21,822 nucleotides of DNA from a virus: positions 1 to 21,822 of the IMG/VR virus record IMGVR_UViG_3300020406_000032. One strand, 5' to 3'. This document shows positions 2,238 to 16,331 of the stretch, piece after piece (position 1 is the stretch's first letter; each line of letters begins with the position of its first letter). The notes beneath the pieces were generated by a model. It had not been told where the DNA came from and ran no database searches. It saw nothing but the letters and a program-made list of their open reading frames with translations. Made by a program: the position numbers and the translations under genes.

Positions 2238-3038
2238 ATGGCATATATAGGTAAACCATTTCTAAATGTTCCAGTCAATTCATTTGCAAAAGAAGATTTC
2301 GTAGGTTCTGATACTGGTACAAATAATAGTATTGCAAATTCACTTGTTCTTTCAAGAGAAGTGCCTGGACTTAATGCATCAAATGTTGAAGTTTTTGTAA
2401 ATAATATTAGACAAGAACCAGATGTTGCATACTTTATGAAAGACGATGCAAACGGTGTTCCAAAAATTTTAGAATTTTCAGAAGCACTAAGTTCTGGTGA
2501 TGAAATCTATATTATACATAAAGGTTTAGGGCCAGGCACAGAAAAATCTGGTATTGCAGCTGGTTCAATCACTGCATCTCTTTTAGACGACACTTTAAAA
2601 ACATTTACATTAGATACATTTACTGGTGATGGTTCTACGGTTGCATTTGTAACTTCTTCTACTATTTCAGCTGCAAGTGCATTATTAGTAACGATTGACG
2701 GTATTGTTCAAAAACCTTCATCAAATTATTCTACATCTGGTGCAACTGTTACATTTACATCTGCTCCATCTGCATCAGCAGAAATAGAAGTTAGAGATTT
2801 AGGAATCAAAACATCAGTAAGAAGAGGAACTGGTTTTAATTTAGATACACTCACAGTAAGTGGTGGTTCAACAACCACTATGACATTATCACACGAAGTT
2901 CTAGTAAATGATGTATTTATTTTTATCAATGGAGTTTGTCAAATTCCAACATCTGCTTATTCTATAAGTGGAACAACCGTGACCTTTGCATCTGCATTAT
3001 CAGACGGTGATGTTGTAGTTGCAAGATACCAGAGATAA
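2238..3038 (+). CDS. Tail-fibre-like protein with three beta repeats
   Basis: A 266-residue protein made of three copies of a ~60-residue beta module, at about residues 35-95, 125-190 and 205-265. Each copy runs: a Leu/Thr-rich strand, then V-x-V-F/T-I-(N/D)-(N/G)-I-x-Q-x-P, then Y-x-x-S-G, then V-T-F-x-x-A-L-x-x-G-D. This module is typical of marine and T7-like phage fibre proteins and suggests an elongated rod. A GGAG-type ribosome site lies just upstream, in the gap after the preceding stop. The gene is followed after only 2 bases by the first glycine-rich fibre gene, so this protein may be an adaptor or shaft for those fibres. That link is inference. Confidence 0.7.
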   Translation: MAYIGKPFLNVPVNSFAKEDFVGSDTGTNNSIANSLVLSREVPGLNASNVEVFVNNIRQEPDVAYFMKDDANGVPKILEFSEALSSGDEIYIIHKGLGPGTEKSGIAAGSITASLLDDTLKTFTLDTFTGDGSTVAFVTSSTISAASALLVTIDGIVQKPSSNYSTSGATVTFTSAPSASAEIEVRDLGIKTSVRRGTGFNLDTLTVSGGSTTTMTLSHEVLVNDVFIFINGVCQIPTSAYSISGTTVTFASALSDGDVVVARYQR

Positions 3039-3040
3039 AA

Positions 3041-4819
3041 ATGCCATTAACAACTATTAAATCATCAAACATAAAAGACTCAGAAATAAAAGATGCAGAT
3101 ATTAGTCCAACTGCTGGTATTACAGAATCTAAAATTACTGGATTAGATGCAAATCAAATTAGTGCAAATGCATTTAATATTGGTGTGTTAGGTTTTAAGA
3201 TGGCAGTAAGTGATGGACTTACTATTTTCAATCTAGTAGATGGTGTCGTAGATGAATTTAATGATGAGTCTGGTGTAGATACTGCCGAAAATAGTAATGC
3301 ATCTTATGATGCTACTTCTGATTTCTATGCAAATCAATCTTTAAATCAACCTTTACCAGCTCCACAAATAGGAAGAACATCTATAACATCTACTGGTTCT
3401 GGAACATATTCTGTTGAACCTACAACATCGGCAGTTGATGTTTTAGTTGTTGGAGGAGGTGGTTCTGGTGGTGCTGGTGGATATAATAATACTGCTGGTG
3501 GAGGTGGTGGTGCTGGTGGTTTAATATTTTATGAAGATTATCCAGTAACTGGTGGTAGTAGTATTCCAGTATCAGTAGGTGCTGGTGGTAGAAGTGCTGG
3601 AGGGGGTGGCCCAAATGGGACTGGGTCAAGTGGTTATGAACCTTTCCAACCACAAAGATTCACTTACAGTTTTCCAGTGATGCCAAGTGCTAATAATCAA
3701 TCATATTATTCTCCAGGCGAACAAGGTACAGATTCAGTTTTTAATGCAGCTCCAGCATTAGTTTTAACTGCTGAAGGTGGTGGTGCTGGTGGTGGATACG
3801 CAACCACAGTTTATGTTCCTTGGCCAACAGCAGAAAATTTTGAACAAACAGTAATAAAAGGTGGTAGTGCTGGTGGTACTGGTTCATATAGTACAGAAGA
3901 TAATTCTGAATCACCAGAAGCAGAACACGCATCTACTCAAGTTACAAATCATCCAGTTCCTGGCTTGTCAAATGACCCTTTACCTGGCACACCAATAAAT
4001 GCTAGGGGTGCATTTGGTAATTCTGGTGGGGTATCAAGTGGAACTGCAACAAATTCTACACACTGCACATCTGGTGGTGGTGGTGGTGCTGGAACTTCTG
4101 GTGGAGATGGTATTGCTACACCAGAAACTGGTGGTGCTGGTGGAGAGGGTTTAAATTACAATATTGCAGATGGTTCAACACCAGTAGGATATGCTGGTGG
4201 CGGTGGAGGAGGTGGTGCTGATACTGCACCTCCTAGTGAAAGTGTTCCTTATGGTGGAGGTGTAGGACAGAATACAACTGCACAATCAAGTTCACCTTGG
4301 GCACCGATATCAAGTCCTTATAGTCCAGTGATTGCTGGTACTGAAGGATATTTTGGTACTGATGGTGTTGCTAATCGTGGTGGTGGTTCTGGTGGTGGTC
4401 ATGTGGAAGGAACAAGTCCTAATGCAGAAGTTGGTGTAAGTGGTATAGCTGGTTCTGGTGTTATTATTGTTGCAGAGTCTAAAGGAAATATTACACAGTC
4501 AAGTATGACTTTAATATCTGATACATTCACTGCAAACTCAACTCCTTCAACTGCAAGAATAGTTTTATTTGCAGAGTTACCAGATGGAACATCTGATTTT
4601 ACAGTTTCTGCAACAAGAGACAACACAAACTTTGATGCTATAACATTAACCGATGAAGGATATGCAGCTGGTTCTTCTGGAACAAAAATATTTACTGGTT
4701 CAACACCTTTAACTGGAGCTGCGCCTGGACAACCTCAAGTGCAATTAAGATGGAAAGTAGTAGGTTCATCTTTGACTGGTAATAACAAAATTCATGGTGT
4801 TGCATTGCAGTGGAAATAA
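3041..4819 (+). CDS. Glycine-rich tail fibre / adhesin (paralogue A)
   Basis: A 592-residue protein, one of four paralogues in this window. Residues 1-44 carry an I-K-D-S-E-I-K-D-A-D-I-S-P type repeat, as in many fibre attachment regions. Residues 45-96 (bases 3173-3328) are a conserved module: F-N-I-G-V-L-G-F-K, then L-V-D-G-V-V-D-E-F and D-T-A-E-N. A variable core (~130-480) starts V-D-V-L-V-V-G-G-G-G and is packed with GGG/GGA motifs plus Pro/Tyr-rich loops, and includes N-I-A-D-G-S-T-P and N-H-P-V-P. The last 106 residues (bases 4499-4819) are a conserved beta domain ending I-H-G-V-A-L-Q-W-K. Glycine-rich cores of this sort form polyglycine-II bundles in the T-even-type adhesin gp38 (phage S16), so receptor binding is plausible. 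Phage glycine-rich domain PF21722 may match. No chaperone gene is recognisable nearby. Confidence 0.75.
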   Translation: MPLTTIKSSNIKDSEIKDADISPTAGITESKITGLDANQISANAFNIGVLGFKMAVSDGLTIFNLVDGVVDEFNDESGVDTAENSNASYDATSDFYANQSLNQPLPAPQIGRTSITSTGSGTYSVEPTTSAVDVLVVGGGGSGGAGGYNNTAGGGGGAGGLIFYEDYPVTGGSSIPVSVGAGGRSAGGGGPNGTGSSGYEPFQPQRFTYSFPVMPSANNQSYYSPGEQGTDSVFNAAPALVLTAEGGGAGGGYATTVYVPWPTAENFEQTVIKGGSAGGTGSYSTEDNSESPEAEHASTQVTNHPVPGLSNDPLPGTPINARGAFGNSGGVSSGTATNSTHCTSGGGGGAGTSGGDGIATPETGGAGGEGLNYNIADGSTPVGYAGGGGGGGADTAPPSESVPYGGGVGQNTTAQSSSPWAPISSPYSPVIAGTEGYFGTDGVANRGGGSGGGHVEGTSPNAEVGVSGIAGSGVIIVAESKGNITQSSMTLISDTFTANSTPSTARIVLFAELPDGTSDFTVSATRDNTNFDAITLTDEGYAAGSSGTKIFTGSTPLTGAAPGQPQVQLRWKVVGSSLTGNNKIHGVALQWK

Positions 4820-4822
4820 ATT

Positions 4823-6526
4823 ATGCCAAATCCAAATACTGGTTTAACTCAGATAAAATCAACTGACATCACAGATGGTATAATCACTGATGCAAAAATA
4901 TCCCCTAGTGCAAATATCACATCAACAAAAACTGGAATTGCAACTGATTTAACTGACACAAATAATCCTTTTAATATCGGTGTATTAGGATTTAAACACG
5001 CAGTCAATGAAGGTTTGACAATATTTAATTTAGTAGATGGTATTGTTGATGAGTTTCACAGTGAAGGTGGTATAGATACTTCAGAAAATTCAAACGCAAC
5101 TTATGATGCAACATCAGATTTTTATTCAAATGATAGCACTGCACCATCACCAGCAACAACAAATATACAAGCATTTTGGCACAATGACGGCACCTTTAAT
5201 GATAATGAGTCAACAGATGGTGGTGGAGCTTCTAATAATGAAGTATCACCATTTACATATACTGCACCACCAACAGCAAAAGCAGTTGATTTATTAGTAA
5301 TAGGTGGTGGAGGAGCTGGTGGTTTAGGTGTAACTGGTTCAATGGTAGGTTCTGGTGGTGGAGGAGGTGCTGGTGGTTTAGTTTATATTGAAAACTTTCC
5401 AGTAGTTCCTGGCGGCACTTATCCTATTACAGTTGGTGCTGGAGGTCAAGATGAACCTAATGGAGGTACATCTGGTGCAGACACAACATTTACATCACCA
5501 ACACCAACTCCTTTCGGCACAAGTATTGTAGGTGAAGGTGGAGGTGCTGGTGGTAATTATAATGGGCCAACTGGTTCTGAATATGGATTTGAAGGTGGTT
5601 CAAGTGGTGGTCACGGATGGGCAGGAGTTAATGCATTAGAAGAATTTACACAAGCAACAAATCATCCTATACCAGGCATAACACCAGCTGGAGATAATGC
5701 TGTTGACCAAAGTCCTAGTCTTAATTTACAAGGTAGTTATGGTGGAGATGGTGCTCAAGCTATTTTGTCTGGAGAATATGTAACTGGAGCAGGAGGTGGT
5801 GCTGGTGAAAATGCTACAAATGGAGGTTCTAATACATACTCAGTTGGTGGTGCTGGATTACCATATGATATTGCAGATGGTTCAACTCCGATAGTTTATG
5901 CTGGTGGTGGAGGTGGTGCTAGTGGATATCCTATTCCTTCACCATATAGTCCAGAGGCCCCAGGCGGAGGTGGTAGAGGTATAGGTGGTACAAATTCTCA
6001 AGCAGAACCAGCTGATGCAACTCCACAAAGTCCATTGTTGAACGGAACATCTCCTCCTCAGTTTGGGCCACAGATTGCAGCCCTATCCTTTGGTGGCGGT
6101 GGAGGTGGTGGAGGTAATAATGGTGGTTCTGGTACAACACCAGCTGGTGGTGGTAATGGTGGAAGTGGTGTTGTTTATGCCTCTGTTTCAATAACTGGTA
6201 GTAATTCAAGTTCTATGACTTTAATATCTGACACATTTACTGCAAATGCAACACCAAGTAAAGCAAGACTTGTATTATTTGCAGAAATACCAGACGATTT
6301 AAATACAGATATAAACGCATCAGTAACAAGAGATAATACAACATTCAATTCTATTACATTAAAAGATGAAGGTTTTCAAGCAGGAAGTTCTGGTATTAAG
6401 ATATTTTCTGGTAGTACACCTTTAACTGGTAGTGCAAGTCCTCAAGTTCAATTAAGATGGAAAATAGTAGGTTCATCACTTACTGGTCAAAATAAAATTC
6501 ATGGTGTAGCTCTCCAATGGGCATAG
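4823..6526 (+). CDS. Glycine-rich tail fibre / adhesin (paralogue B)
   Basis: A 567-residue protein, tandem to paralogue A with a 3-base gap and a weak ribosome site. The conserved N-terminal module is at residues 50-101 (bases 4970-5125; F-N-I-G-V-L-G-F-K, V-D-G-I-V-D-E-F). The glycine-rich core (~155-455) starts V-D-L-L-V-I-G-G-G-G and keeps the D-I-A-D-G-S-T-P box and a T-N-H-P-I-P-G box, but its loops differ from A in sequence and length. The conserved C-terminal domain spans bases 6209-6526 and ends I-H-G-V-A-L-Q-W-A. The core suggests a polyglycine-type adhesin head with variable tip loops. The terminal bases CAATGGGCATAG also contain an out-of-frame ATG that opens an eight-codon frame whose TGA overlaps the next gene's ATG. 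Confidence 0.75.
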   Translation: MPNPNTGLTQIKSTDITDGIITDAKISPSANITSTKTGIATDLTDTNNPFNIGVLGFKHAVNEGLTIFNLVDGIVDEFHSEGGIDTSENSNATYDATSDFYSNDSTAPSPATTNIQAFWHNDGTFNDNESTDGGGASNNEVSPFTYTAPPTAKAVDLLVIGGGGAGGLGVTGSMVGSGGGGGAGGLVYIENFPVVPGGTYPITVGAGGQDEPNGGTSGADTTFTSPTPTPFGTSIVGEGGGAGGNYNGPTGSEYGFEGGSSGGHGWAGVNALEEFTQATNHPIPGITPAGDNAVDQSPSLNLQGSYGGDGAQAILSGEYVTGAGGGAGENATNGGSNTYSVGGAGLPYDIADGSTPIVYAGGGGGASGYPIPSPYSPEAPGGGGRGIGGTNSQAEPADATPQSPLLNGTSPPQFGPQIAALSFGGGGGGGGNNGGSGTTPAGGGNGGSGVVYASVSITGSNSSSMTLISDTFTANATPSKARLVLFAEIPDDLNTDINASVTRDNTTFNSITLKDEGFQAGSSGIKIFSGSTPLTGSASPQVQLRWKIVGSSLTGQNKIHGVALQWA

Positions 6527-6539
6527 TATATATATTATT

Positions 6540-7052
6540 ATGAAAATATTTAAACAAAAATACAAAACTCCGACAAAAAAAGAATTTCCCCCAATCGTAA
6601 CTTATCACGATAAAAGATACGGTGGTACGATGGTTGATGAACAAGGTCGTTTCTATACAGTAGAAGATGAAACACAAAGACTGTTTCGTTGGGAACGAAT
6701 GATTCGTAAAAAAGAAAGAACTCAAGAACAAATTAAAACTTGGATTGCAATCAAAGAGGGAAGATATCACAAAAAAAATTATTATATGAATAATAATAAT
6801 AGTAAACAACATTTTCACTGGAATAAAATGCCGAAACCTAAAACTGGTGGTAAATTATCTAGAAGATTAGATGGTGGTTGGGTAGAGGAATATAAACCAG
6901 CAAAATCTACACGATTACATAAATGGTTGCAAGATGCAAAAGAGGGAAAAGTTTTTAATGGACAAAAACATAGAACTAAACAATGGTTAATAAAACCCAC
7001 TAATGCAGATGTTGAACAAATAAAAAACCCTATTGACATTGAAAAAAAATAA
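6540..7052 (+). CDS. Highly basic protein of unknown function
   Basis: A 170-residue protein I do not recognise. It is extremely rich in Lys and Arg with many aromatic residues and few hydrophobic stretches, so it has no membrane segment or signal peptide. Visible features are K-E-F-P-P-I-V-T-Y-H near residues 14-23, F-R-W-E-R-M-I-R-K-K-E-R near 49-60, an Asn run at 83-87, and a half from ~91 on with W-V-E-E-Y-K-P-A-K and H-R-T-K-Q-W-L. Such a charge could mean nucleic-acid binding or packing against DNA in the head, but this is only inference. It sits between the fibre pair and the oxygenase pair. Its last codons contain the -35 element of the promoter for the next gene. There is no clear ribosome site before its ATG, which lies in an AT-only run. 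Confidence 0.55.
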   Translation: MKIFKQKYKTPTKKEFPPIVTYHDKRYGGTMVDEQGRFYTVEDETQRLFRWERMIRKKERTQEQIKTWIAIKEGRYHKKNYYMNNNNSKQHFHWNKMPKPKTGGKLSRRLDGGWVEEYKPAKSTRLHKWLQDAKEGKVFNGQKHRTKQWLIKPTNADVEQIKNPIDIEKK

Positions 7053-7060
7053 GTTATAAT
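7033..7060 (+). promoter_or_regulatory. Sigma70-like promoter (TTGACA, 16 bp, TATAAT)
   Basis: A perfect TTGACA at 7033-7038 and a perfect TATAAT at 7055-7060 are separated by 16 bases. The start of transcription would fall near 7067, about 13 bases before the ATG at 7080, with an AAGG-type ribosome site at 7067-7070. This is a host-vegetative (phage early) promoter pattern in the middle of late structural genes. The -35 box lies inside the last codons of the preceding gene, and the region is AT-rich, so a chance -10 match is easy. The joint match with near-ideal spacing is what supports the call. Confidence 0.55.
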
Positions 7061-7079
7061 AATTAAAAGGTGAAAAATT

Positions 7080-7736
7080 ATGAGTAAATTTACAGACACA
7101 GAGATTGATACTCTGGAACTTCCTAAAGAAGAAGAAAAAAAAGAAGAAACCCAAGAACAAAATATTGTTGAACCAGATGATAAAAATATTGTCAAACTGG
7201 TCGGTAATAAAAATATAGTTTCTATATTAACATCACAATTTTTTGCAGAGAAAGAGTGTGATGCGATAATAAAAGAAACAGTCAAAGAGTTATGGGTTGA
7301 TAGTTCATTAAAAGGTGTAAGAAAAGCAACACAACAATCTTTACCTATGAACGATAAAGGTTGGCCTTATACTAAAGTATTGGAACTTGCACAACAAGCT
7401 AATAATAAGAATTTTAAAATGCAACTTGCTGGTTTCTATCAAGCAGACAATCCACAAATAGTTTGTTATAAGAACAAAGATATGTATAATTATCATTTAG
7501 ACATAGGAAACAATGCACCATTTAGAAAATTAACTTTTATTATTCAATTATCTGACACCAAAGATTACGATGGTGGACATATTGAATTAATGAATATGAA
7601 CACGGATAATAAATTATTTAGAGAAAAAGGTCAAATAATTATATTCCCATCTTTTGTTCCTTGGCGTGTTACCAAAGTCACAAAGGGTGTAAGAAATTGT
7701 ATTGAGGGTTGGTTACACGGCCCAAGTTATGTATGA
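7080..7736 (+). CDS. 2-oxoglutarate/Fe(II) oxygenase-family protein, distal iron His replaced
   Basis: A 218-residue protein of the prolyl-4-hydroxylase-like (PKHD/PiuC-type) 2OG-Fe(II) oxygenase fold. Residues 1-40 are an acidic, Glu/Lys-rich leader. The jelly-roll core shows Y-x-x-H-L-D (H139, D141, the proximal iron pair), R-K-L-T-F-I-I-Q-L (149-157), Y-D-G-G-H-I-E-L (163-170), F-P-S-F (189-192) and T-K-G-V-R...G-W-x-x-G-P with the likely 2-oxoglutarate-binding R205. The family normally has His two residues before the V-T of F-P-S-x-x-x-H-R-V-T; here that position is W195 (TGG at 7662-7664). The protein may therefore bind iron abnormally or be non-catalytic. Substrate unknown. It overlaps the next oxygenase gene by 4 bases (ATGA) and has its own sigma70-like promoter. 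Confidence 0.8.
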   Translation: MSKFTDTEIDTLELPKEEEKKEETQEQNIVEPDDKNIVKLVGNKNIVSILTSQFFAEKECDAIIKETVKELWVDSSLKGVRKATQQSLPMNDKGWPYTKVLELAQQANNKNFKMQLAGFYQADNPQIVCYKNKDMYNYHLDIGNNAPFRKLTFIIQLSDTKDYDGGHIELMNMNTDNKLFREKGQIIIFPSFVPWRVTKVTKGVRNCIEGWLHGPSYV

Positions 7737-8479
7737 CATTTAATAAAATCGCACAACAAGTCCCATTTGATAAAAGAGGTAAAATCACATCTGAGATATG
7801 GTTTCCTACATTGTTTCATTTTACAGATATTCTAAACTATGAAGAACGAAATAAGAAATGGTTAAAACATATTTTTAAATGGAGAGATGATGATAACAAA
7901 GGAATAGTTCGTTCTAACTCAAGAGGTTGGCATAGTGCAGTAGATATGCATATGCGAGAAGAATATAAAGATATGGGGAAAGAAGCACTTCAAGTAGGAT
8001 TGAGAATACAAGAAATAATGGATTTAAATCCAGATACAGAACCAGTCATTGATAATATGTGGGCAAATGTTTCTCAGTTTGGTGCTCACAATCGTAATCA
8101 TACTCATCCAGGCTCACACTTTAGTTTTGTTTACTATTTACAATCTCCAGAAAAATGTGGACAAATATGGTTTTCTGACCCTAGAGCACAAGCAATCGCA
8201 GTTCAATTACCATACAACCCAAAAAAACCTAGATTAAGAGAAACACTTAATGAAGTATATTGGGCTCCAGTTCCAGGCAGACTGATTATGTTTCCATCTT
8301 GGGCTGTACACGAAGTAGAACCTAATTTATCAGAATTGATGGGTAAAAAAGGGTTAAGAGTAAGTGTTTCTGGTAATTTAAGTTTTCGTTTTAAAAAAGA
8401 TGCTACTTTTAAAGAAGAGAGAGAAGGACACGATGCAAAAGGTTTTCTTACTATGAAGGGTGCAGAGAAAAGAACATAA
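7733..8479 (+). CDS. 2OG-Fe(II) oxygenase family protein (2OG-FeII_Oxy_5 / TIGR02466 type)
   Basis: A 248-residue protein. Residues 109-150 carry the family signature: M-W-A-N-V-S-Q-F-G then H-T-H-P-G-S-H-F-S (123-131), V-Y-Y-L-Q, and I-W-F-S-D-P-R. A second block is P-G-R-L-I-M-F-P-S-W-A-V-H-E-V-E-P-N (181-198), with H193 as probable distal iron ligand, followed by R209 in a strand that fits the 2-oxoglutarate-binding Arg. The catalytic set therefore looks intact, unlike the neighbour upstream. Such genes are frequent in T4-like phages of marine hosts. The substrate is unknown (protein or nucleotide hydroxylation have been suggested for the family). I chose the ATG that overlaps the previous stop as ATGA, which implies translational coupling. 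A TTG 24 bases upstream would add eight residues and is less likely. Confidence 0.8.
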   Translation: MTFNKIAQQVPFDKRGKITSEIWFPTLFHFTDILNYEERNKKWLKHIFKWRDDDNKGIVRSNSRGWHSAVDMHMREEYKDMGKEALQVGLRIQEIMDLNPDTEPVIDNMWANVSQFGAHNRNHTHPGSHFSFVYYLQSPEKCGQIWFSDPRAQAIAVQLPYNPKKPRLRETLNEVYWAPVPGRLIMFPSWAVHEVEPNLSELMGKKGLRVSVSGNLSFRFKKDATFKEEREGHDAKGFLTMKGAEKRT

Positions 8480-8490
8480 TCTCTTTTTAT

Positions 8491-8498
8491 TATAAATA
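8491..8498 (+). promoter_or_regulatory. T4-type late promoter box (TATAAATA) before gp13
   Basis: An exact TATAAATA lies in the 37-base gap between the oxygenase gene and gp13. Transcription would start about 6 bases downstream of the box, near 8504, just ahead of an AAAGGA ribosome site (8505-8510) and the ATG at 8517. This matches the T4 gp55-dependent late promoter, and marine T4-like phages keep this consensus. No other exact plus-strand box occurs until the one before gp18, so it may drive gp13 through gp17. Confidence 0.75.
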
Positions 8499-8516
8499 AT
8501 AATAAAAGGATTAGTT

Positions 8517-9335
8517 ATGGCAGTACCTACTTCAAAGTCAACATTTAAAGAATATTGTTTAAGAGCATTAGGTAAAGGTGTCATTGATATCAATGTATCT
8601 GATGACCAAATAGATGATAGAGTAGATGAAGCTTTACAATATTTCTCAAAATACCATTATGATGGTATTGAAAGAGTATATCTAAAACATCAACTTACTA
8701 CAGCTGAAATTGCAAGAATGAGAAGTAATGAGAGTGCAGTTACAGCAACCGATAAAGTTGATAGTTCAATTACAGCAGACTTTTTACAACAAGAAAATTA
8801 TATACCTATTCCAGATAGTGTATTAGCAGTTGTAAAAGTATATCCAGTAACAGATAAATTAACTCAAAATTTATTTGATGTTCGTTATCAATTAAGATTA
8901 AATGACTTATATGATTTTAGTTCAACTTCAATAATTCACTATGAAATGACAATGAGGCATCTAGATTTTCTAGACCACATTCTTACTGGTGAATATCCAA
9001 TAGATTTTAAAGAACATCAAAATAGATTATACATTCACGCAGACATGGAAAAAGATTTCAATAACGGTGATTTTCTTTTAATAGAATGTTATAGAAAATT
9101 AGACCCAACAGTTTACACAGATGTGTTTGATGATATGTATTTAAAAAGATATGCAACTTCATTAATTAAAAAACAATGGGGTGCTAACCTATCAAAATTT
9201 AATGGTGTTCAAATGTTAGGTGGAGTTACTATGAACGGTGAAACAATCTATCAACAAGCGTTAGATGAAATCACTAAATTAGAAGAAGAAATGAAACTAG
9301 GATTTGAGTTACCAGTAAATTATATGGTAGGGTAA
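8517..9335 (+). CDS. 13: Neck protein gp13
   Basis: A 272-residue protein matching the gp13 head-completion/neck protein of T4-like marine phages. The N-terminus P-T-S-K-S-T-F-K-E-Y-C-L-R-A-L-G followed by V-S-D-D-Q-I-D-D-R-V-D-E-A-L is characteristic. A central block around Y-E-M-T-M-R-H-L-D-F-L and a C-terminal acidic helix L-E-E-E-M-K-L-G-F-E-L complete it. gp13 acts with gp14 on the portal vertex after DNA packaging to seal the head and form the surface to which the tail docks. It is followed by gp14 (3-base gap) and gp15, the canonical order. The start has a good ribosome site (AAAGGA) and a late promoter box just upstream, so expression late in infection is expected. Confidence 0.9.
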   Translation: MAVPTSKSTFKEYCLRALGKGVIDINVSDDQIDDRVDEALQYFSKYHYDGIERVYLKHQLTTAEIARMRSNESAVTATDKVDSSITADFLQQENYIPIPDSVLAVVKVYPVTDKLTQNLFDVRYQLRLNDLYDFSSTSIIHYEMTMRHLDFLDHILTGEYPIDFKEHQNRLYIHADMEKDFNNGDFLLIECYRKLDPTVYTDVFDDMYLKRYATSLIKKQWGANLSKFNGVQMLGGVTMNGETIYQQALDEITKLEEEMKLGFELPVNYMVG

Positions 9336-9338
9336 GTT

Positions 9339-10508
9339 ATGTCAGTCAACAAATTTTTTCACGACAGTAATAAAACTTCTATATCTGCCGAAAGAGACCT
9401 ATATAAAAATCTAGTCAAAGAAGCTATCCAGATTCATGGACACGATGTCTATTATGTAAATAGAACATTTGTTAACGAAGATACTTTATTTGGTGAAGAT
9501 ACATCATCAACTTTTTCAGAATCACAACTTATAGAAATGTATGTAGAAAATGCAGAGGGTGGTCTTGAGGGTGAAAAAGAATTAGTATCAAAGTTTGGAT
9601 TAGATATTAAAGATGAAGTTACCTTTGTCGTAAGTAAAGAAAGATTTCAAGACATAACAAAACAAGTTGTTTTAGAATCTGGTACTACTGAAACTTTTGG
9701 TGCAGTATTATTAGAAGACGGAACAACTACAAGTGAAAGTGCATATCTTGTAAATGAAGATGAATCCACTGATGCAGATAGACCTTTAGAAGGTGATTTA
9801 GTTTTTCATCCTATCATTAATAAAATGTTTGAAATAAGTTTTGTTGACCACGATGAACCTTTCTTTCAATTAGATAACAATCCAGTTTATAAATTAAAAT
9901 GTAGATTATTTGAATATGGTAGTGAGGGTCTTGATACTGGTGTAAGTGCGATTGACCAAATAGAAACTGATAGTAGTTTAGATGCACTTTCTTACCAGTT
10001 TACATTAGAACAAACTGGAACATATACAGAAGAAATTGCATTAGAAGATAATGATTTATTATTATTAGATAGAACAGATGGTGGTGGTTCTGATGCTGGT
10101 GATAATCTAATTTCTGAAACACAGTTTGGTGCAAGTTCTATACTACTTGAAACTGCTGATACTTATTACATTACAGTTAAAGATGAAACTGGTGCATTTG
10201 AAGAAGACGAAGTTATTACTGGTGCAAACGGTGGACAAGCTTATATCAGACTAATAAATAGTAACACATTACATTTTGAATATATAACTGGAACATTTGC
10301 AAAAGATGAAGTTATTACTAGTAGAAACAATGGGTTTACTGCAACAATAACTGAAATAAAAGAAGAAAATCATTATCTAATAAATGAAGAATATAATGTA
10401 GATACTATTGATGAAAAATCTCAGATTGAAGATTTTGAAAACTTAGATAATACAATATTAGACTTTAGTGAATCAAATCCATTTGGTGACGCTGGGAAGG
10501 AATCATAA
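9339..10508 (+). CDS. 14: Neck protein gp14
   Basis: A 389-residue protein. The N-terminus (N-K-F-F-H-D-S-N through residue ~110, with H-G-H-D-V-Y-Y-V-N-R and an acidic stretch) and the block at ~150-195 (L-V-F-H-P-I-I-N-K-M-F-E-I, F-F-Q-L-D-N) are those of gp14 in marine T4-like phages. gp14 completes the neck with gp13 and takes part in head-tail joining. Two extras stand out. Residues ~238-260 hold L-L-L-L-D-R-T-D-G-G-G-S-D-A-G-D, a motif also present twice in the fibre-like protein at 11328. Residues 286-303 and 318-337 are an imperfect tandem beta repeat (G-x-F-x-x-D-E-V-I-T). It is longer than T4 gp14 (about 256 residues from memory). The TAA overlaps the next ATG by one base. Confidence 0.88.
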   Translation: MSVNKFFHDSNKTSISAERDLYKNLVKEAIQIHGHDVYYVNRTFVNEDTLFGEDTSSTFSESQLIEMYVENAEGGLEGEKELVSKFGLDIKDEVTFVVSKERFQDITKQVVLESGTTETFGAVLLEDGTTTSESAYLVNEDESTDADRPLEGDLVFHPIINKMFEISFVDHDEPFFQLDNNPVYKLKCRLFEYGSEGLDTGVSAIDQIETDSSLDALSYQFTLEQTGTYTEEIALEDNDLLLLDRTDGGGSDAGDNLISETQFGASSILLETADTYYITVKDETGAFEEDEVITGANGGQAYIRLINSNTLHFEYITGTFAKDEVITSRNNGFTATITEIKEENHYLINEEYNVDTIDEKSQIEDFENLDNTILDFSESNPFGDAGKES

Positions 10509-11308
10509 TGTTAGGACAACAATTTTATCACGAAACGATTAGAAAAATCATAGTATCATTCGGTACTATTTTTAATAATATACAGATTGTCAGAAAAAAT
10601 AGTTCTGGTAATATTACACAATCTATGAAAGTTCCACTTGCATATGGGCCTAAACAAAAATTTCTTACACGAATTAGAGAAGATGCAAGTATTAGTAAAA
10701 CAACTGCGATTACTTTACCTAGAATTGCATTTGAGATACAAACACTTTCTTACGATACAACTAGAAAATTAAATCGTGTTACAAAGATTAGAAAGACAAG
10801 TGCAAAAGGTTCTGGTAAATTAGAAACACAATATATGCCTGTACCTTATAATGTTGATTTACAATTATTTGTCATGGCAAAAAGTGGTGATGATGCACTA
10901 CAAATCATAGAACAAATATTACCTTTCTTTCAACCAGAATATACAATTACAGTCAATGATAATTTAGATATGAAACAAAAAAGAGATGTTCCTATTGTAT
11001 TAACTGGTATAGATTATGAAGATAATTATGAAGGTGATTTCACAACAAGACGAGCAATCATTTATACATTATCTTTTACTGCTAAATTTTATTTGTATGG
11101 GCCTGTCACATCACAATCTATTATTAAATCAGTTCAAGTTGACCAGTTTACAGATTTACCAGACAAATCACCTAAAAGAGAACAAAGATATAGTGTCACA
11201 CCAGAACCAGTATCTGCTGATTTTGATGACAACTTTGGATTTAATGAAACAACATCTTTCTTTCAAGATGCGAAAGACTTTAATCCAGAAACTGGTAGTG
11301 ATGAATAA
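10508..11308 (+). CDS. 15: Tail sheath stabiliser and completion protein gp15
   Basis: A 266-residue protein. L-G-Q-Q-F-Y-H-E-T-I-R-K at the start, V-P-L-A-Y-G-P-K-Q-K-F-L near residues 38-49 and the L-P-R-I-A-F-E-I block are hallmarks of gp15 in T4-like phages. gp15 forms a hexameric ring capping the top of the tail tube and sheath and joins it to the neck. The size agrees with T4 gp15 (272 residues from memory). The start codon overlaps the gp14 stop by one base (TAATG), so translation is probably coupled. The C-terminal ~35 residues are Asp/Phe/Asn-rich and look disordered. In T4 the next gene is 16; here a fibre-like gene intervenes. Confidence 0.92.
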   Translation: MLGQQFYHETIRKIIVSFGTIFNNIQIVRKNSSGNITQSMKVPLAYGPKQKFLTRIREDASISKTTAITLPRIAFEIQTLSYDTTRKLNRVTKIRKTSAKGSGKLETQYMPVPYNVDLQLFVMAKSGDDALQIIEQILPFFQPEYTITVNDNLDMKQKRDVPIVLTGIDYEDNYEGDFTTRRAIIYTLSFTAKFYLYGPVTSQSIIKSVQVDQFTDLPDKSPKREQRYSVTPEPVSADFDDNFGFNETTSFFQDAKDFNPETGSDE

Positions 11309-11327
11309 ATAAGAGTAGGAGAATAAA

Positions 11328-12257
11328 GTGCCAATAAGAACATTACCAAGTAGAGCTATTGCAGATGCATCAATACAAGCTGTTGATATTGCAAGTAATA
11401 GTATATCAAAAGCAAAAATAGATGCAGATACACGACTAGGTTTACAGAACGATTCAATTATATTAGATGGAACAGATGGTGCTGGTGCAAACAAAGGTGA
11501 TTTTTTAGTATTAGATGGAACAGATAATTCTAGTACAAATGCAGACGATAGAATACTTTTTGACGAAATATTTATAGATAAAATCGGATTGTTTAACATT
11601 AATACTTTAGGTTCTGGTGGTCAAGCAGTCAAAGTAAATACTGGTGGAACTGGACTTGAATTTGGTGCAGCTGGTGGACTAGTTTTACTAGAAGAAAAAA
11701 ATGTTGTATCTGGTTCTGCAGCTACACAACCTTTTCATTTTCAAAATATTTTTTCTTCTACATACAGAACATACAAAGCAATATACTCAGTTAAAGAAAC
11801 AGAAAGTTCTAATAATGCTAGTAACTCTGGTTTAATTGTAAGATTAGGTAATGCTGGTACATTATCAACTGGAACATCATCAACTGTTTCACACTCATTA
11901 CAGTATCTTAGAGGAGACAACACAACTCATTCTGTTGTATATGGTGACAGTGATGACATATTAGTATTTTGTCAAAACTCTGCAAGTAACGAAGATATGT
12001 TAGCTATGGGTTCATGTGAATTTCATAATTTTCAAACTGCTGATTTACCTGCTTTCTGTCTCTCTAATACAGTAATGCACGGAACTAGTAATACAAATTA
12101 TTTAGACACTGGTTTTAATATATTACAAAACAATAATAATTTTACTGATGTGTCTTTTGAATACAAAGTCACTGGTGGAGGTGGTGGTGGTAATATGGAT
12201 TATACAACAACTGGGTACAATGTATTTGGTAATGTAAAAATATACGGAATAATCTAA
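11328..12257 (+). CDS. Fibre-like structural protein inserted between gp15 and gp16
   Basis: A 309-residue protein starting at GTG with a well-placed AGGAGA ribosome site (11317-11322). Residues ~9-40 (S-R-A-I-A-D-A-S-I-Q-A-V-D-I, S-K-A-K-I-D-A-D) resemble the N-terminal helical/turn repeats of fibre and appendage proteins, including the glycine-rich fibres here. Residues ~43-80 hold two L-D-G-T-D repeats, as in gp14. Residues ~90-115 have S-G-G-Q-A-V-K-V-N-T-G-G-T-G-L-E-F, a common fibre beta-turn stretch. The C-terminal ~190 residues form a different beta-rich domain with a lone G6 run near residue 285. It does not carry the C-terminal domain of the four glycine-rich paralogues. Probably a tail fibre or virion decoration protein. 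Its last base is the first base of gp16. Confidence 0.65.
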   Translation: MPIRTLPSRAIADASIQAVDIASNSISKAKIDADTRLGLQNDSIILDGTDGAGANKGDFLVLDGTDNSSTNADDRILFDEIFIDKIGLFNINTLGSGGQAVKVNTGGTGLEFGAAGGLVLLEEKNVVSGSAATQPFHFQNIFSSTYRTYKAIYSVKETESSNNASNSGLIVRLGNAGTLSTGTSSTVSHSLQYLRGDNTTHSVVYGDSDDILVFCQNSASNEDMLAMGSCEFHNFQTADLPAFCLSNTVMHGTSNTNYLDTGFNILQNNNNFTDVSFEYKVTGGGGGGNMDYTTTGYNVFGNVKIYGII

Positions 12258-12652
12258 TGTCTAAAGTTAATAATATTTTAGATGAAACATTGATAGGTGA
12301 ACAAATTATGAAGGTTGAAGATAAACCAAAAACTGTTGTCAAAACAAATAATGAAGGTAATGATTTTGAATATCAAAGACAAAATTTTTATTCATTAGTT
12401 GAAAAAGGACAAGATGCAATAGAGGGCATATTAGACCTTGCAAGGGAAAGTGAACATCCAAGAACATATGAAGTTGCTGGACAACTCATAAAAAATGTTG
12501 CAGAGGTCACAGAGAAACTTGGTGATTTACATTTGAAGATGCAAAAGTTGAAAGAATTACCAGACAAAGGGCCAAAGAATGTAACTAACGCATTGTTTGT
12601 TGGTTCTACAACGGAATTACAAAAAATGTTAAAAAATAGTGGGAGTAAGTAA
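12257..12652 (+). CDS. 16: Terminase small subunit gp16
   Basis: A 131-residue, mostly helical protein that fits T4-like gp16. After a variable ~35 residues comes the core D-F-E-Y-Q-R-Q-N-F-Y-S-L-V-E-K-G-Q-D-A-I, then H-P-R-T-Y-E-V-A-G-Q-L-I-K-N-V-A, then a Lys-rich helix and the tail N-A-L-F-V-G-S-T-T-E-L-Q-K-M. These are the central coiled-coil oligomerisation helices and the conserved C-terminus. gp16 forms rings that regulate gp17 ATPase and nuclease and recognise the phage DNA for packaging. In most T4-like phages gp17 follows directly; here two fibre genes of 3.7 kb lie between them. The ATG overlaps the preceding stop by one base, and its own TAA overlaps the next ATG by one base. Confidence 0.9.
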   Translation: MSKVNNILDETLIGEQIMKVEDKPKTVVKTNNEGNDFEYQRQNFYSLVEKGQDAIEGILDLARESEHPRTYEVAGQLIKNVAEVTEKLGDLHLKMQKLKELPDKGPKNVTNALFVGSTTELQKMLKNSGSK

Positions 12653-14538
12653 TGGGTGAAACTAAAGTCAATAACAACATGATACAAGATGGTGCGATTG
12701 ATACAAATAAACTCGCACCTAATTCTATATCTTCTGCAAACATTACTGACGGAAGTATTGTAAACGCAGATATATCTCCTAGTGCAGCTATCACATTATC
12801 AAAAATCAGTACGCCTGGAAGTGCAACAGACTTTTTAAAAGGCGATGGTTCTTTTGGTACAGTAGATACAAGTGCAATCGCAACAAACACATTTAATATC
12901 GGAGTATTAGGTTTTAAGATGGCAGTAAACGATGGTTTGACTATCTATAATTTAATAGACGGTGTAGTTGATGAGTTTCACGATGAGTCTGGTGTAGATA
13001 CTGCTGAAAACTCTGCAACTACAAACTATGATTCGTCTGGTGATTTCTATCAAAATTTAGATTCAACGCCTGGTGTTACAATGCATCTAGGTGTAGAAGC
13101 AGTTACTTTTGAAAATCCAGAACACGCACCTTTGATAACATACACATCACAAGAAGCTGCCAATGGTGCATTTGGAGCTCAAGGTAGTATTACATTTCCA
13201 TCTTTAACAACTTCAATAGAAGCAACTATGGTTGGTGCTGGTGGTGCGAATAGTGGTAATGGAGATGGAGGGCCAGGTGGTAGTGTTCAAGCAACTATAA
13301 CGAATCCATCTATCGCTGGTGCAACTTGGGATTATGTTGTTGGTGAAGGTGGTAATGGTACATCTTATGCAACACCGTCACCAGAAGTCGGTGCAAGTGG
13401 TGGATATGGTGGTGGCGGTTCTGGTTCTACTGGAGGTGGTGGTGGTTTCACTGGTATTTTTGATGGTGAAGTTACAATCATAGAAGGTGGTACATATAAT
13501 GAGAATGGTGCATGGCAAACTCCAGGCTCACCTAATAATTATCCAGATGAAGGGCCAGGTTTTGCAGATACAGTTTCCCCAACTAATGCTAGTGAAGCAG
13601 TTTTAATTGTAGGTTCTGGTGGTGCTGGTGAGAACTCAAATGGTGCCCCACAAGCACAAGGTGGTGGTGGTGGATTTTTAGCAGGAACAAATGGTTCTGG
13701 TAGTTTTAGTGTACCTACTGCTGGTTCTGGTGGCACTAATGCATCTGGTGGTGGTGCAGACCAAGAAGCAAACGGACATTTGGCTGCATATCCTTTTGGT
13801 GAAGGTACTGGTTTTGGCCCATCAGAATGGACTCAAGAATCTCCACATCCAAACGCAATACATTTTCAAGGTGGTGGAACAGCATATCCACCTTATCACT
13901 ATGGTGGTGCTGGTTCTGGATATCACGGAGGTGGTGGTACATCTGACCCAGGCGGTACTACTGGTGGTGCTGGTGGAGGTGCTGGATATTCAAATCCAAC
14001 ATATGTTCCAACACCATCTCTAGAATACGAAACAGCAGTAGGAGCTGGAGCCGCTCCAGCACCAGAAAGTACATTTGATGAAGCACCATATTACACTGCA
14101 TTACCCTCACCAAGACAAGCACTTTTTGCAGCTGGAGCTCAAGGTGAAGGTGCAGAAAATGGTGCGAGTAATCAAGGTGGTGATGGTGGTATTCTTTTAA
14201 CATTTGATGCTGGTGCTCAAGCAACTAGTATGACTTTAGTATCAGATACATTCACTGCAAATTCAACTCCAACAACTTCAAGAATAGTAGTATTTGCAGA
14301 ACTACCAGATGGATTAAGTGATTTTACAGTTTCTGTAACAAGGGATAACTCAACATTTGATACTGTAACATTAACAGATACTGGTTATGTTGCTGGTTCT
14401 AGTGGCACTAAAATATTTACTGGAACAAGAACATTAACTGGAACAGCAAGTCCTCAAGTCCAAATGAGATGGAAAGTAGTAGGGTCATCTTTATCTGGCA
14501 CTAATAAAATTCATGGTGTTGCGTTACAATGGGCATAA
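12652..14538 (+). CDS. Glycine-rich tail fibre / adhesin (paralogue C)
   Basis: A 628-residue protein, the longest of the four paralogues. Residues 1-80 carry an N-terminal repeat region (D-G-A-I-D-T-N-K-L-A-P, I-T-D-G-S-I-V-N-A-D-I-S-P-S) and F-L-K-G-D-G-S-F-G-T. The shared module is at residues 81-133 (bases 12892-13050). The core is glycine-rich but of another subtype: it opens I-T-F-P-S-L-T-T-S-I-E-A-T-M-V-G-A-G-G and lacks the V-L-V-V-G-G-G-G and N-I-A-D-G-S-T boxes of A, B and D. The shared C-terminal domain spans bases 14224-14538 and ends I-H-G-V-A-L-Q-W-A. This looks like a swapped core between conserved ends. The last ten bases (ATGGGCATAA) also contain the start of the next fibre gene. 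Confidence 0.75.
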   Translation: MGETKVNNNMIQDGAIDTNKLAPNSISSANITDGSIVNADISPSAAITLSKISTPGSATDFLKGDGSFGTVDTSAIATNTFNIGVLGFKMAVNDGLTIYNLIDGVVDEFHDESGVDTAENSATTNYDSSGDFYQNLDSTPGVTMHLGVEAVTFENPEHAPLITYTSQEAANGAFGAQGSITFPSLTTSIEATMVGAGGANSGNGDGGPGGSVQATITNPSIAGATWDYVVGEGGNGTSYATPSPEVGASGGYGGGGSGSTGGGGGFTGIFDGEVTIIEGGTYNENGAWQTPGSPNNYPDEGPGFADTVSPTNASEAVLIVGSGGAGENSNGAPQAQGGGGGFLAGTNGSGSFSVPTAGSGGTNASGGGADQEANGHLAAYPFGEGTGFGPSEWTQESPHPNAIHFQGGGTAYPPYHYGGAGSGYHGGGGTSDPGGTTGGAGGGAGYSNPTYVPTPSLEYETAVGAGAAPAPESTFDEAPYYTALPSPRQALFAAGAQGEGAENGASNQGGDGGILLTFDAGAQATSMTLVSDTFTANSTPTTSRIVVFAELPDGLSDFTVSVTRDNSTFDTVTLTDTGYVAGSSGTKIFTGTRTLTGTASPQVQMRWKVVGSSLSGTNKIHGVALQWA

Positions 14539-16331
14539 CAAAATTAGAAAATCAAAATCTAAATGATGATGCAATCACCTCTAGTAATACTAGTGGTATG
14601 TCAGTTGATTCATCAAAAATAAATAGTGCAATCACAAATGATGATATATCTCCAAGTGCGAGTTTAGCAACAACTAAATTAGATTTAAGTAGTGTTCCAT
14701 CATCGCAATTTGTTCAAATGAATAGTAGTGGTGGTACTATTGATATACAAGGTTTAGATGAATCAACTTTTAATATAGGTCTTCTTGGTTTTAAAATGGC
14801 AGTAACTGAGGGTCTCACTATATTTAATTTAAAAGATGGTATTGTTGATGAATTTAACGATGAAAGTGGTATAGACACAGCAGAAAATGTTAATGTCACT
14901 TATGACAGTTCTTCAGATTTTTATAGTGGTGGTTTCGGAATCGGTGATTCACCACCAACAGAAGGTATAACTGCATTTACATCTGTCGGCCCTCACACAT
15001 ATAATGTAGAAACTGGCACTACCAATGTTAATGTTTTAATCGTTGGAGGTGGTGGAGGAGGTGGGTCTGGTGGATATAATAGAACTAAAGGTGGAGGTGC
15101 TGGTGCTGGTGGTTTAATCTACTATCCAAATTATCCAGTAACGCCTGGTGGTACAGTTGCAGTAACAGTTGGTGCTGGTGGTGAAGGTGGTGGATATTAT
15201 CCATCGCCTGGTTCTACACCTTATACACCAACTGCAAGACCAGATGGTCGTGTAGGAACTGGGGAATTCGGTGGTTATGAACATCCACAATATACTTATC
15301 CACCAAATCGCACATATTACACGCCTGGACAAACTGGTACAGATTCATCTTTTGGGCCTCTCATAGGTGAGGGTGGGGGTGCTGGAGGAGGTTATTTAAC
15401 TGCTGGTTCACATCCATATATGGGTGGTTTAACTGGGCCACAATATCATTCAGGCGGTAGTGGTGGTGCAGCTGGTGGTAGTGGGTCAGGTTACACTCCT
15501 GGCTCTGCTGGTGAGACTTCAACTCAAGTTGGTAATCATCCAATTCCATTGACTCCAACAGTTTTACCAGAAAACTCGCCTGGAAGTTTTGGAAATGATG
15601 GTGGTGTAAACCAAACAGATTCTGCTCCTACATTTGGGGCGTCTGGTGGCGGAGGCGCTGGTGGTGCTGGTGGAGATGCTGAAGGGACTGTTGCTGGGGA
15701 AGGTGGTATTGGACTAAATTATAATATTGCTGATGGCACTACATCAGTAGGTTATGCTGGTGGTGGTGCTGGTGCTGCTGATGGTGATTTTCCACAAGGA
15801 ACTTCAGTGCCATTTGGTGGTGGAGATACAAACCCTTCTCCTCATCAATCAGGGCCCTTTTTTCCTGGCTTGCCTGGTGCTGTAAATAGTGGTGGTGGTG
15901 GAGCTGGTGGAAGAAATACTCCCCCATACCCACAACCAGTCGGAGGTGCATATGGTGGAGATGGTGGGCCTGGTGTTGTTATAGTTAAAGAAGTTCAAGG
16001 TCAAGTTAATAACACTTCTACAACCCTAATATCAGATACATTTACTGCAAACTCTATTCCAACCACAGCAAGAATAGTTGTTTTTGCAGAAATTAATAGT
16101 ACATTAAATTCACAATTAAGTGCATCTGCAACTAGAGATAATACAACTTTTAATGCGATTACTTTAACTGATAGTGGTTATGTAACTGGTTCAAGTGGTG
16201 TTAAAATATTTACTGGTAGCACACCTCTAACTGGTTCTGCAAGTCCTCAAGTACAATTAAGATGGAAAATAACTGGTTCTAGTTTAACTGGTGCTAATAA
16301 AATACATGGTGTATCTTTACAATGGGCATAG
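14529..16331 (+). CDS. Glycine-rich tail fibre / adhesin (paralogue D)
   Basis: A 600-residue protein. It starts M-G-I from an ATG inside the Q-W-A-stop codons of paralogue C, a 10-base overlap in another frame with no ribosome site, so coupling to C is likely. The shared N-terminal module is at residues 81-132 (bases 14769-14924) and the C-terminal module at bases 16017-16331. The core (~165-490) is closest to that of paralogue A, 11 kb away: both have T-Q-V-x-N-H-P, Y-Y-(S/T)-P-G, Y-N-I-A-D-G-(S/T)-T-x-V-G-Y-A-G-G-G and V-P-(Y/F)-G-G-G in the same order. It is likely a virion adhesin with a polyglycine-type core and Pro/Tyr-rich surface loops. Its own last codons provide the gp17 start. Confidence 0.75.
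   Translation: MGITKLENQNLNDDAITSSNTSGMSVDSSKINSAITNDDISPSASLATTKLDLSSVPSSQFVQMNSSGGTIDIQGLDESTFNIGLLGFKMAVTEGLTIFNLKDGIVDEFNDESGIDTAENVNVTYDSSSDFYSGGFGIGDSPPTEGITAFTSVGPHTYNVETGTTNVNVLIVGGGGGGGSGGYNRTKGGGAGAGGLIYYPNYPVTPGGTVAVTVGAGGEGGGYYPSPGSTPYTPTARPDGRVGTGEFGGYEHPQYTYPPNRTYYTPGQTGTDSSFGPLIGEGGGAGGGYLTAGSHPYMGGLTGPQYHSGGSGGAAGGSGSGYTPGSAGETSTQVGNHPIPLTPTVLPENSPGSFGNDGGVNQTDSAPTFGASGGGGAGGAGGDAEGTVAGEGGIGLNYNIADGTTSVGYAGGGAGAADGDFPQGTSVPFGGGDTNPSPHQSGPFFPGLPGAVNSGGGGAGGRNTPPYPQPVGGAYGGDGGPGVVIVKEVQGQVNNTSTTLISDTFTANSIPTTARIVVFAEINSTLNSQLSASATRDNTTFNAITLTDSGYVTGSSGVKIFTGSTPLTGSASPQVQLRWKITGSSLTGANKIHGVSLQWA

Follow-up and report, generated by a model that had tools for sequence, protein, structure and literature searches.

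Exchange of modules is already known from phage adhesins, whereas it is usually unclear how a fibre survives the swap of its receptor domain. Adhesins of the gp38 type reportedly exchange between conserved motifs, as Tetart is said to have described in 1998. The S16-type gp38 is recognised by a polyglycine sandwich of ten glycine-rich helices, which sits on a beta-helix and is joined to gp37. Its glycine-rich motifs and its hypervariable segments, tied to host range in the available parts of two reports on S16- and T2-type proteins (PMC6851490, PMC12892980), resemble the genes presented here, whereas gp38 is, in the first of these, a single adhesin with a beta-helix domain that caps gp37 (PMC6851490). 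The cyanophage Pam3 tail fibre gp24 (PDB 7ypx, 7yfw) shares with our family a TNF-like and glycine-rich fold (Z 15.6 and 15.2, 25-27% identity). The matched part is described as recognising the host receptor, and the available text has these domains end a simple fibre; our family, in contrast, has a predicted insert in a split sandwich, occurs in several copies and exchanges its cores (PMC9608196). A Pam3-type receptor domain is a trimer, assembled with a separate chaperone; in the present analysis, no gene for a chaperone was identified.

At the level of the locus, the host recognition cluster of pelagimyophages is a fibre region, hypervariable and flanked by VrlC and gp14 (PMC7029224); metaviromic islands likewise contain host-recognition genes that vary, and terminase genes are named among their contents (PMC3909814). 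Two of the four genes studied here, g1 and g2, precede gp13 and gp14, as genes of such a cluster would (VrlC was not identified), whereas the terminase genes enclose g3 and g4, which are thus outside it. Glycine-rich paralogues, exchange between slots and a split socket are not described in the consulted portions of both reports (PMC7029224, PMC3909814). In haloarchaeal hafunaviruses, too, a hypervariable region encodes a tail adhesin rich in glycine, whose type goes with host range and differs between viruses of the same species; however, they have one adhesin gene, and the excerpted text describes no multi-slot exchange (PMC8651126). The listed titles and abstracts of open-licence papers mention neither exchange among multiple fibre slots nor a split socket that carries receptor domains as inserts.

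Anatomy of four fibre genes at two sites

The window, by which we mean the whole stretch of 21,822 nucleotides, is a fragment of a T4-like phage, a marine virus of bacteria. It contains the order gp13-gp14-gp15-gp16-gp17-gp18-gp19-gp20 of the T4-like structural module (Kyanoviridae relatives), with the portal end assigned from a near-DNA match, and the identical gp13-to-gp20 order is present in Melnitz, HTVC008M and Mosig. As far as tested, these three cultured relatives appear to have the sites without this fibre family: profiles for the two conserved modules described below found neither in ten of their fibre-like or neighbouring proteins. One of the ten, Mos62, contains 23% glycine. A near-DNA search of a phage collection returned seven records, at terminase, neck or portal DNA or at unannotated portal-region DNA, and a tblastn search with g4 found nothing, probably in part due to low-complexity masking.

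The genes g1 to g4 encode proteins of 592, 567, 628 and 600 amino acids, all on the plus strand, and are related far beyond chance (with g4 as query, g1 is found at E 2.5e-124, g2 at 6.6e-56 and g3 at 9.4e-43). Each consists of a variable leader of 44-80 residues, an N-module of 52-53 residues, a core with 24-29% glycine and a C-domain of 104-106 residues. In slot P1, g1 (3041-4819) is divided into leader (3041-3172), N-module (3173-3328), core (3329-4498) and C-domain (4499-4816); the corresponding parts of g2 in slot P2 (4823-6526) are 4823-4969, 4970-5125, 5126-6208 and 6209-6523. The gene in slot P3, g3 (12652-14538), follows the terminase small subunit and is partitioned at 12652-12891, 12892-13050, 13051-14223 and 14224-14535, and g4 (14529-16331), the last fibre gene before the terminase large subunit, at 14529-14768, 14769-14924, 14925-16013 and 16014-16328.

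Protein identity among the four amounts to 73-81% in the N-module, 69-79% in the C-domain and 31-48% in the cores. An earlier, sequence-only reading had recognised a four-gene family with shared ends and divergent glycine-rich middles, spending about 7.1 kb or a third of the window; open reading frames and identities confirm the family, which measures 7,163 bases (32.8%). It had, however, missed the leader, and only the g3 core stands clearly apart (31-34%), whereas those of g1, g2 and g4 can be aligned with each other (43-48%). The Pfam family PF21722 (Gly_rich_2, gathering cut-off 24.3 bits) is matched above its cut-off by g2 (46.9) and g4 (32.4), below it by g1 (19.1), and not by g3. At the DNA level, the N-modules are 69-79%, the C-domains 71-81% and the cores 47-59% identical; the 69-81% of the ends gives no support to recent gene conversion having kept them alike.

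Directly 5' of g1, a fibre-like gene of 266 amino acids (2238-3038, plus strand) has tail-fibre PHROG matches, and a gene similar to it lies immediately upstream of fibre genes at other sites in relatives; its product is a candidate partner of the fibre proteins. The second site is bordered upstream by the terminase small subunit (12257-12652, plus strand; PHROG 445, E 2.2e-43) and downstream by the large subunit (16322-17962, plus strand), which overlaps g4 by 10 bases. Before the small subunit lies an open reading frame of 309 amino acids (11328-12257, plus strand) with neither Pfam nor PHROG match, kept only in part in G001, G002, G005 and G006 (68-96% over 116-152 residues).

Predicted fold and the question of function

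As a correction to the earlier reading of the conserved ends, structural models predict them to be the two halves of one beta-sandwich, with the core in its loop. Residues 97-600 of the g4 model matched one beta-sandwich at Z 13.3 with only 142 residues aligned, N-C packing being judged from fold matches alone. One core-less relative, folded at a mean pLDDT of 80, is predicted to be the bare sandwich, matching the same sandwich as the g4 model does, at Z 13.9 over 135 residues. Among solved structures, the best socket matches were the phi812 baseplate protein (9euf, Z 13.9) and the HFTV1 tail protein (9h4p, Z 12.5); the likeness is one of fold, as sequence identity is 10% and 20%. Both chains may also hold large insertions, because few aligned residues span long stretches (135 over 503-1150 in 9euf, 119 over 567-884 in 9h4p). 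The socket itself resembles carbohydrate-binding modules. A C-domain search against PDB sequences gave chance-level matches only. For the core, the g4 model matched the Pam3 fibre (VIA: Z 15.2, 3.2 A over 197 residues, 27% identity), and Foldseek also returned the Pam3-type TNF-like and glycine-rich fold for this model (E 4.7e-5). The analogy to S16 gp38 drawn earlier gives way to Pam3 as the best solved match; a gp38 chain appeared neither in the sequence search nor among the fold matches listed, an absence that does not exclude likeness.

We propose, at a probability of about 0.72, that the genes encode adhesins which occupy several slots, are built on a split socket and can be exchanged, their cores being moved by recombination at or near socket sequences. 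The leader would fix the place where the protein attaches, the N-module and C-domain would together form a carbohydrate-binding-module-like sandwich as socket, and the core, placed in a loop of that sandwich, would present a TNF-like and glycine-rich domain like the receptor-recognising end of Pam3. Because the insert would enter and leave the socket at one loop, the core could be swapped or lost without breaking its holder. The leader mostly follows the slot, which would suit an address for the attachment position, whereas its median dN/dS of 0.50, the highest of all parts (core 0.39, C-domain 0.15, N-module 0.12), fits poorly with a strict address role. Modelling of the leader is poor (block pLDDT 39-58).

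It is also conceivable, if unlikely, that cores are exchanged in proteins that do not bind receptors but serve as decoration of the head, the neck or the baseplate or work against co-infecting phages. The position of g3 and g4 between terminase genes, away from those of the baseplate, would suit this, and a socket resembling carbohydrate-binding modules might itself bind sugar. However, the fold match of the core is to that portion of the Pam3 fibre which, in the available text, recognises the receptor (PMC9608196), the gene before g1 has tail-fibre matches, and cores evolve faster than the socket (dN/dS 0.39 versus 0.12-0.15). We consider receptor binding by virion-borne g1 to g4 proteins the probable function.

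Exchange of cores between slots and phages

Exchange was quantified on 80 distinct near-clade proteins out of 114 (75 with core), clustered at a single chosen setting (leader 0.50, core 0.55, C-domain 0.80); A4 comprised 97 and A5 93 of the 114 proteins, and three scans took the best 80 matches only. In the class counts, crossover estimates and trees, "slot" stands for leader class rather than proven position. Clustering sorted the 80 proteins into 19 leader classes and, with "none" counted, 16 core classes; 10 of the 15 real core types are paired with at least two leader classes. Trees agree with this shuffling: mapped onto the core tree, leader-class labels change 36 times (minimum 18; 48-60 in shuffles), and core labels mapped onto the leader tree change 34 times (minimum 14; 45-55 in shuffles).

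In seven close phages including the window, which share 88-96% identity with the window in the genes on either side of g1 and g2, same-slot cores are less than 50% identical in 20 of 21 pairs at P1 and 19 of 21 at P2; adding the more divergent G007 and G009 gives 33 of 36 and 26 of 28. Conversely, comparison across sites gives core identities of up to 92% in protein, against a background of 30-37% for unrelated cores, and the DNA of the L070 core is 96-97% identical to that of L046 and L010, which stand at a different site, next to an N-module at 75%. Leader and C-domain of g1 are nearest to P1-type genes of relatives, whereas its core is nearest to genes of other leader classes (L017, 79%; L005, 75%); the g2 core is 85% identical to L072, a gene of another leader class, and slot P1 of G013 also holds the g3 core type. 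Compared with relatives that have three genes, g4 has a leader most like that of their middle gene (PX, 54-55%; the last gene shows 36% in G001), whereas its N-module, core and C-domain are, L001 aside, closest to the last gene. Phages of this lineage have up to five copies, and those of the distant clade six, spread over two or three sites in the genome; the two clades share no common core (best 30-37%; 33 of 34 distant members compared).

The exchangeability of cores, proposed from the window alone, is thus borne out by divergence within slots and near-identity between sites. One-to-one conservation without exchange, named at that stage as the contrary outcome, is not seen at P1 and P2 but is seen at P3 and partly at P4. 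Exchange is uneven, because at P3 the cores of four genomes correspond one-to-one (80-91%); at P4, likeness ranges over 64-93% among four of the six cores. Such slot fidelity, together with a core dN/dS above that of the N-module and C-domain, could point to old paralogues, each with its own core, diverging fast by point mutation and indels. This account might hold for P3 but is contradicted for P1 and P2, where same-slot cores lie near background, by the near-identical cores at different sites and by the conflict between leader and core trees, and overall it is very improbable.

L045 matches L046 and L010 at 99% in the core, but this was not counted as between-slot exchange, all three genes preceding the terminase large subunit. 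The leader of L045 belongs to the class of the third site, and from the N-module through the large subunit L045 and L010 are 98.8% identical; therefore, what was replaced here, within one slot, was the leader side and not the core. Exchange of partial cores seems rare, as judged from the sequences: a 60-residue window of at least 80% identity occurred in 5 of 2,461 pairs of different core types, each involving L048.

Crossovers could be estimated for the 36 of 75 full-length members that had usable mates and fell into the N-module in 32 and the C-domain in 31, at positions varying from base 16 to 153 and from base 0 to 311, respectively; mate selection biases them toward the ends, and the 36 are not independent, many sharing ancestry. 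Exact matches of at least 20 bases between copies within one genome were found in 12 of 48 pairs for the N-module, 19 for the C-domain, 6 for the cores and none for the leaders. That the conserved ends serve as recombination arms, as suggested earlier, is consistent with these data but not proven: crossovers lie mostly in the two modules, yet mate selection partly forces them there. Homologous recombination is the route we favour. Constant ends with variable middles also resemble systems in which variation is programmed, either by a site-specific recombinase or by a diversity-generating retroelement. The latter is recognised by a reverse transcriptase with a template repeat, and an invertible fibre cassette by a site-specific invertase next to the variable gene. 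This is a scarcely credible alternative given that crossover estimates are spread across N-module and C-domain instead of one site and that no recombinase or reverse transcriptase was found among 20 window proteins (PHROGs) or 10 (Pfam) of this incomplete fragment, outside which such a gene may lie.

Core-less genes, distant relatives and implications

Five distinct core-less proteins occur among the 80 near-clade members, and one and the same core-less gene is present in five records from five samples. Misassembly classically arises where conserved ends recur within a genome, and the near relatives are metagenomic contigs, but that the mosaics are assembly chimeras is the least probable account, as 17 of the 43 leader-core combinations recur in at least two distinct proteins, the same core-less gene recurs across samples and no stop codon interrupts any of the matches listed.

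In distant phages, the C-domain stands beside unrelated domains, in several proteins clearly together with an N-module. After removal of duplicates, 85 of 95 rows entered the Pfam scan, each with at most its last 560 residues, and these distinct viral C-domain proteins carry, with overlaps, Gly_rich_2 (24), Laminin_G_3 (16) and two F5/8 type C families (9 and 7); the strict N-module pattern was found in only 16 of the 85. A broader proposition, which we hold at even odds, is that a portable split socket is widespread in tailed phages: a carbohydrate-binding-like sandwich with one or two loop ports would accept inserts of unrelated folds (glycine-rich and TNF-like, laminin-G lectin, F5/8 type C) or none, and would let some phages combine adhesins over several slots, with some holders left empty.

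If the split socket is true, it would provide a structural reason why exchange of receptor domains is tolerated, predict at which places it is tolerated and explain both core-less genes and unrelated inserts. Mostly uncultured marine phages would then gain an adhesin set of several slots, with core types that can be read from metagenomes. These core types could be tested on hosts, offering a route to who infects whom.

Fibre genes in the structural module

The 21,822-base window comes from a T4-like marine phage and carries its structural module, with gp13, gp14, gp15, the small and large terminase subunits, sheath, tube and portal in their usual order. Its large terminase subunit shares 75% identity with the counterpart in Methylophilales phage Melnitz and 67-68% with those in Pelagibacter phages HTVC008M and Mosig. 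The four fibre-like genes, all on the plus strand, form two tandem pairs: g1 (3041-4819) and g2 (4823-6526) lie some way upstream of gp13, and g3 (12652-14538) and g4 (14529-16331) are placed between the terminase genes. This inter-terminase gap behaves as a variable site with other contents in the cultured relatives: Melnitz has an F5/8 type C protein there, HTVC008M an oxygenase and a halogenase, and Mosig an ORF of the 70-aa class. Gene maps of relatives, gathered from viral contigs, show the same two fibre sites, and G007, G010 and G016 also carry fibre genes at a further upstream site. Copies number at most five per record in close relatives and at most six in the distant clade, as counted in 29 records, many of them fragments.

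Several neighbouring features were recorded alongside. The g3/g4 (14515-14550) and g4/terminase (16310-16345) junctions are 10-base overlaps, in which the conserved QWA-stop end codons of g3 and g4 include the ATGGGCATA start of the downstream gene; the end of g2 (6515-6526) has bases identical to that overlap, yet the next listed gene begins further on. A 266-aa fibre-like gene (2238-3038) has 30-36% identical counterparts in G007, G010, G016, G017, G018, G022 and G026, which immediately precede fibre genes in all seven records, and this repeated position suggests a partner or attachment protein of the fibres. Matches to a 309-aa ORF (11328-12257) in G001, G002, G005 and G006 span only 116-152 aa (68-96% identity), the remainder being variable. 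Between terminase and sheath, a small HNH-endonuclease-like ORF (17937-18296, minus strand) is retained in all five mapped relatives covering that place, and in the individual loci L010, L045 and L046. In G007, four large unassigned ORFs stand between the oxygenase gene and gp13 (minus strand of contig L231, 2874-9011, corresponding to 10960-17097 once the map is oriented); the window has no such ORFs at this place.

Core exchange between slots and phages

The sequence-only reading had described four ORFs with conserved ends and divergent glycine-rich cores, and identities measured part by part bear this out. Among g1-g4, a leader of 44-80 aa precedes an N-module of 52-53 aa (73-81% identity), a glycine-rich core (31-48%) and a C-terminal domain of 104-106 aa (69-79%). 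Median dN/dS values of 0.12 for N-modules, 0.15 for C-domains, 0.39 for cores and 0.50 for leaders (40-44 pairs each) make the two ends the most constrained parts, and the high value of the leaders is ill-suited to a strict attachment address.

Slots P1 and P2, the positions of g1 and g2, were compared in seven genomes (the window, G001, G002, G005, G013, G014 and G015), in all of which they are flanked by the same two genes, 92-95% and 88-96% identical to the window's in the six relatives. Same-slot cores fall below 50% identity in 20 of the 21 pairs at P1 and 19 of the 21 at P2, while leaders, N-modules and C-domains are mostly far closer; with two more divergent genomes added, G007 for both slots and G009 for P1, the counts become 33 of 36 and 26 of 28. 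Similar cores recur elsewhere, against a background of 30-37% identity between unrelated cores. The core of the last fibre gene in G006 is 92% and 89% identical to those of other-site genes in G007 and G016, 79% to G001 P2 and 76% to G014 P1; the G013 P1 core shares 80-84% with the P3 cores (the slot of g3) of G001, G002 and G005, and the g1 core 75% with G002 P2. At the DNA level, the L070 core (third site in G010) matches the cores of L046 and L010, both located before the terminase, at 96-97% identity, and the adjoining N-modules are 75% identical.

With leader class as a stand-in for slot, the 80 near-clade proteins fall into 19 leader and 16 core classes ("no core" included), and at least two leader classes accompany 10 of the 15 real core types. 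On the same stand-in, the leader plus N-module tree conflicts with the core tree: placing leader-class labels on the core tree takes 36 changes (minimum 18, shuffles 48-60), and placing core labels on the leader tree takes 34 (14 at minimum, 45-55 in shuffles), with the C-domain tree intermediate at 28 and 34. Since these counts lie above the minimum but below the shuffles, core exchange is frequent, yet non-random. The earlier proposal of an exchangeable set is supported by the relatives, except at P3, where cores stay with the slot across four genomes (80-91%), and in part at P4, where 64-93% identity unites four of the six cores. No common core was found between the distant and near clades. 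Conservation at P3 and P4, clade-separate cores and a changeable leader all run against a simple exchange picture.

g4 itself may be composite. Its leader is 54-55% identical to that of the middle gene of three-gene relatives and 36% to that of the last gene of G001, whereas the N-module, core and C-domain of g4 have, L001 excepted, last genes as their closest relatives. G001, G002 and G005 have three fibre genes at the inter-terminase site and G006 has two, as in the window. A fusion of the middle and last genes that eliminated one copy could account for this mismatch.

Placement of crossovers

The conserved ends had also been proposed as recombination arms. Among 36 mosaics, which include all four window genes, 32 have the estimated left crossover in the N-module and 31 the right one in the C-domain, a placement that arises partly by construction, given that mates were picked for similar leaders and cores and that one event can recur in several related sequences; the remaining ends lie at most 83 bases from a core edge. 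The proposal is consistent with these positions, which mate choice partly forces. The spread says more: left ends range from N-module base 16 to 153 and right ends from C-domain base 0 to 311, which fits homologous recombination along a conserved stretch better than a single fixed site. Exact stretches of at least 20 bases, which could seed such events, are shared by intragenomic copy pairs in the N-module (12/48), C-domain (19/48) and core (6/48), and never in the leader (0/48).

One crossover is recent. L045, L046 and L010 all stand before the terminase, but L045 has the third-site leader class. The fibre genes of L045 (546-2381) and L010 (2865-4838) were compared: from the N-module start through the terminase the two sequences are 98.8% identical over 4,110 bases, and positions 51-2378 of L045 match the third-site genes of L070 at 93% identity. 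Here the leader side was replaced, not the core, by a crossover at the leader/N-module border.

A predicted socket and its inserts

Five distinct near-clade proteins of 225-240 aa lack a core entirely, 4-5 residues (SNPT in four of them) linking N-module to C-domain. They carry four different leader classes, and one recurs in five records from five samples. In the g4 model (mean pLDDT 73.5, 97-sequence alignment), the core matches the Pam3 cyanophage tail fibre (Z 15.6, 223 residues, 5.6 A; Z 15.2, 197 residues, 3.2 A; identity 25-27%) and the Bxb1 tail-tip protein (Z 14.7). The matches ranked next extend across model residues 97-600 but align no more than about 130-150 of them, so that N-module plus C-domain correspond to one beta-sandwich; they comprise the phi812 baseplate (Z 13.3), the HFTV1 tail (Z 11.9) and Eph ligand-binding domains (about 9-11). 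Residues 100-239 of a core-less protein modelled alone (mean pLDDT 80.1) match the same sandwich: phi812 (Z 13.9), HFTV1 (Z 12.5) and a xylanase carbohydrate-binding module (Z 10.7). Because both models match as one beta-sandwich, the two ends are predicted to be halves of a single socket, with the core inserted in its loop. Judged solely from the aligned ranges, the matching domain in the phi812 and HFTV1 chains may itself contain large insertions.

The socket appears to extend beyond glycine-rich cores to laminin-G and F5/8 type C inserts. In L079, on the same contig as L245, N-module and C-domain enclose a laminin-G domain (Pfam E 2.5e-19), and a Rhizobium phage protein combines such a domain with the C-domain and a weak N-module match. 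Of two F5/8 type C stretches in L082, the better occupies the core position (265-387) and the other is placed between two N-module pieces (48-75; 231-243, weak). A wider scan gave 79 loci from the best 80 of 110 matches. The 85 distinct C-domain proteins include Gly_rich_2 in 24, Laminin_G_3 in 16 and F5/8 type C families in 9 and 7 (overlapping); the C-domain stops at most 5 residues from the ORF end (95 rows, duplicates still included). When all 85 are aligned, the second aspartate of DGxxD, a motif of the N-module, hardly varies, though a strict form of the pattern picks out just 16 of them. Alphaproteobacterial and Nitrospina metagenome bins include contigs with the C-domain relatives L324-L327; these may be prophages or phage contigs.

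Tail adhesins that are rich in glycine and bear hypervariable loops are already known from gp38 (PMC6851490, PMC12892980) and hafunaviruses (PMC8651126), as are hypervariable host-recognition islands in pelagimyophages (PMC7029224, PMC3909814). Searches of open-licence literature listed nothing on the exchange of cores among several slots, on holders without a core or on a split socket that carries unrelated inserts. We propose that the leader would set the slot, the socket act as holder and the core recognise the host, the last by analogy with the Pam3 fold (PMC9608196), and that recombination across socket sequences would swap the core. The predicted split-socket structure offers a reason both for core exchange and for the existence of core-less proteins.
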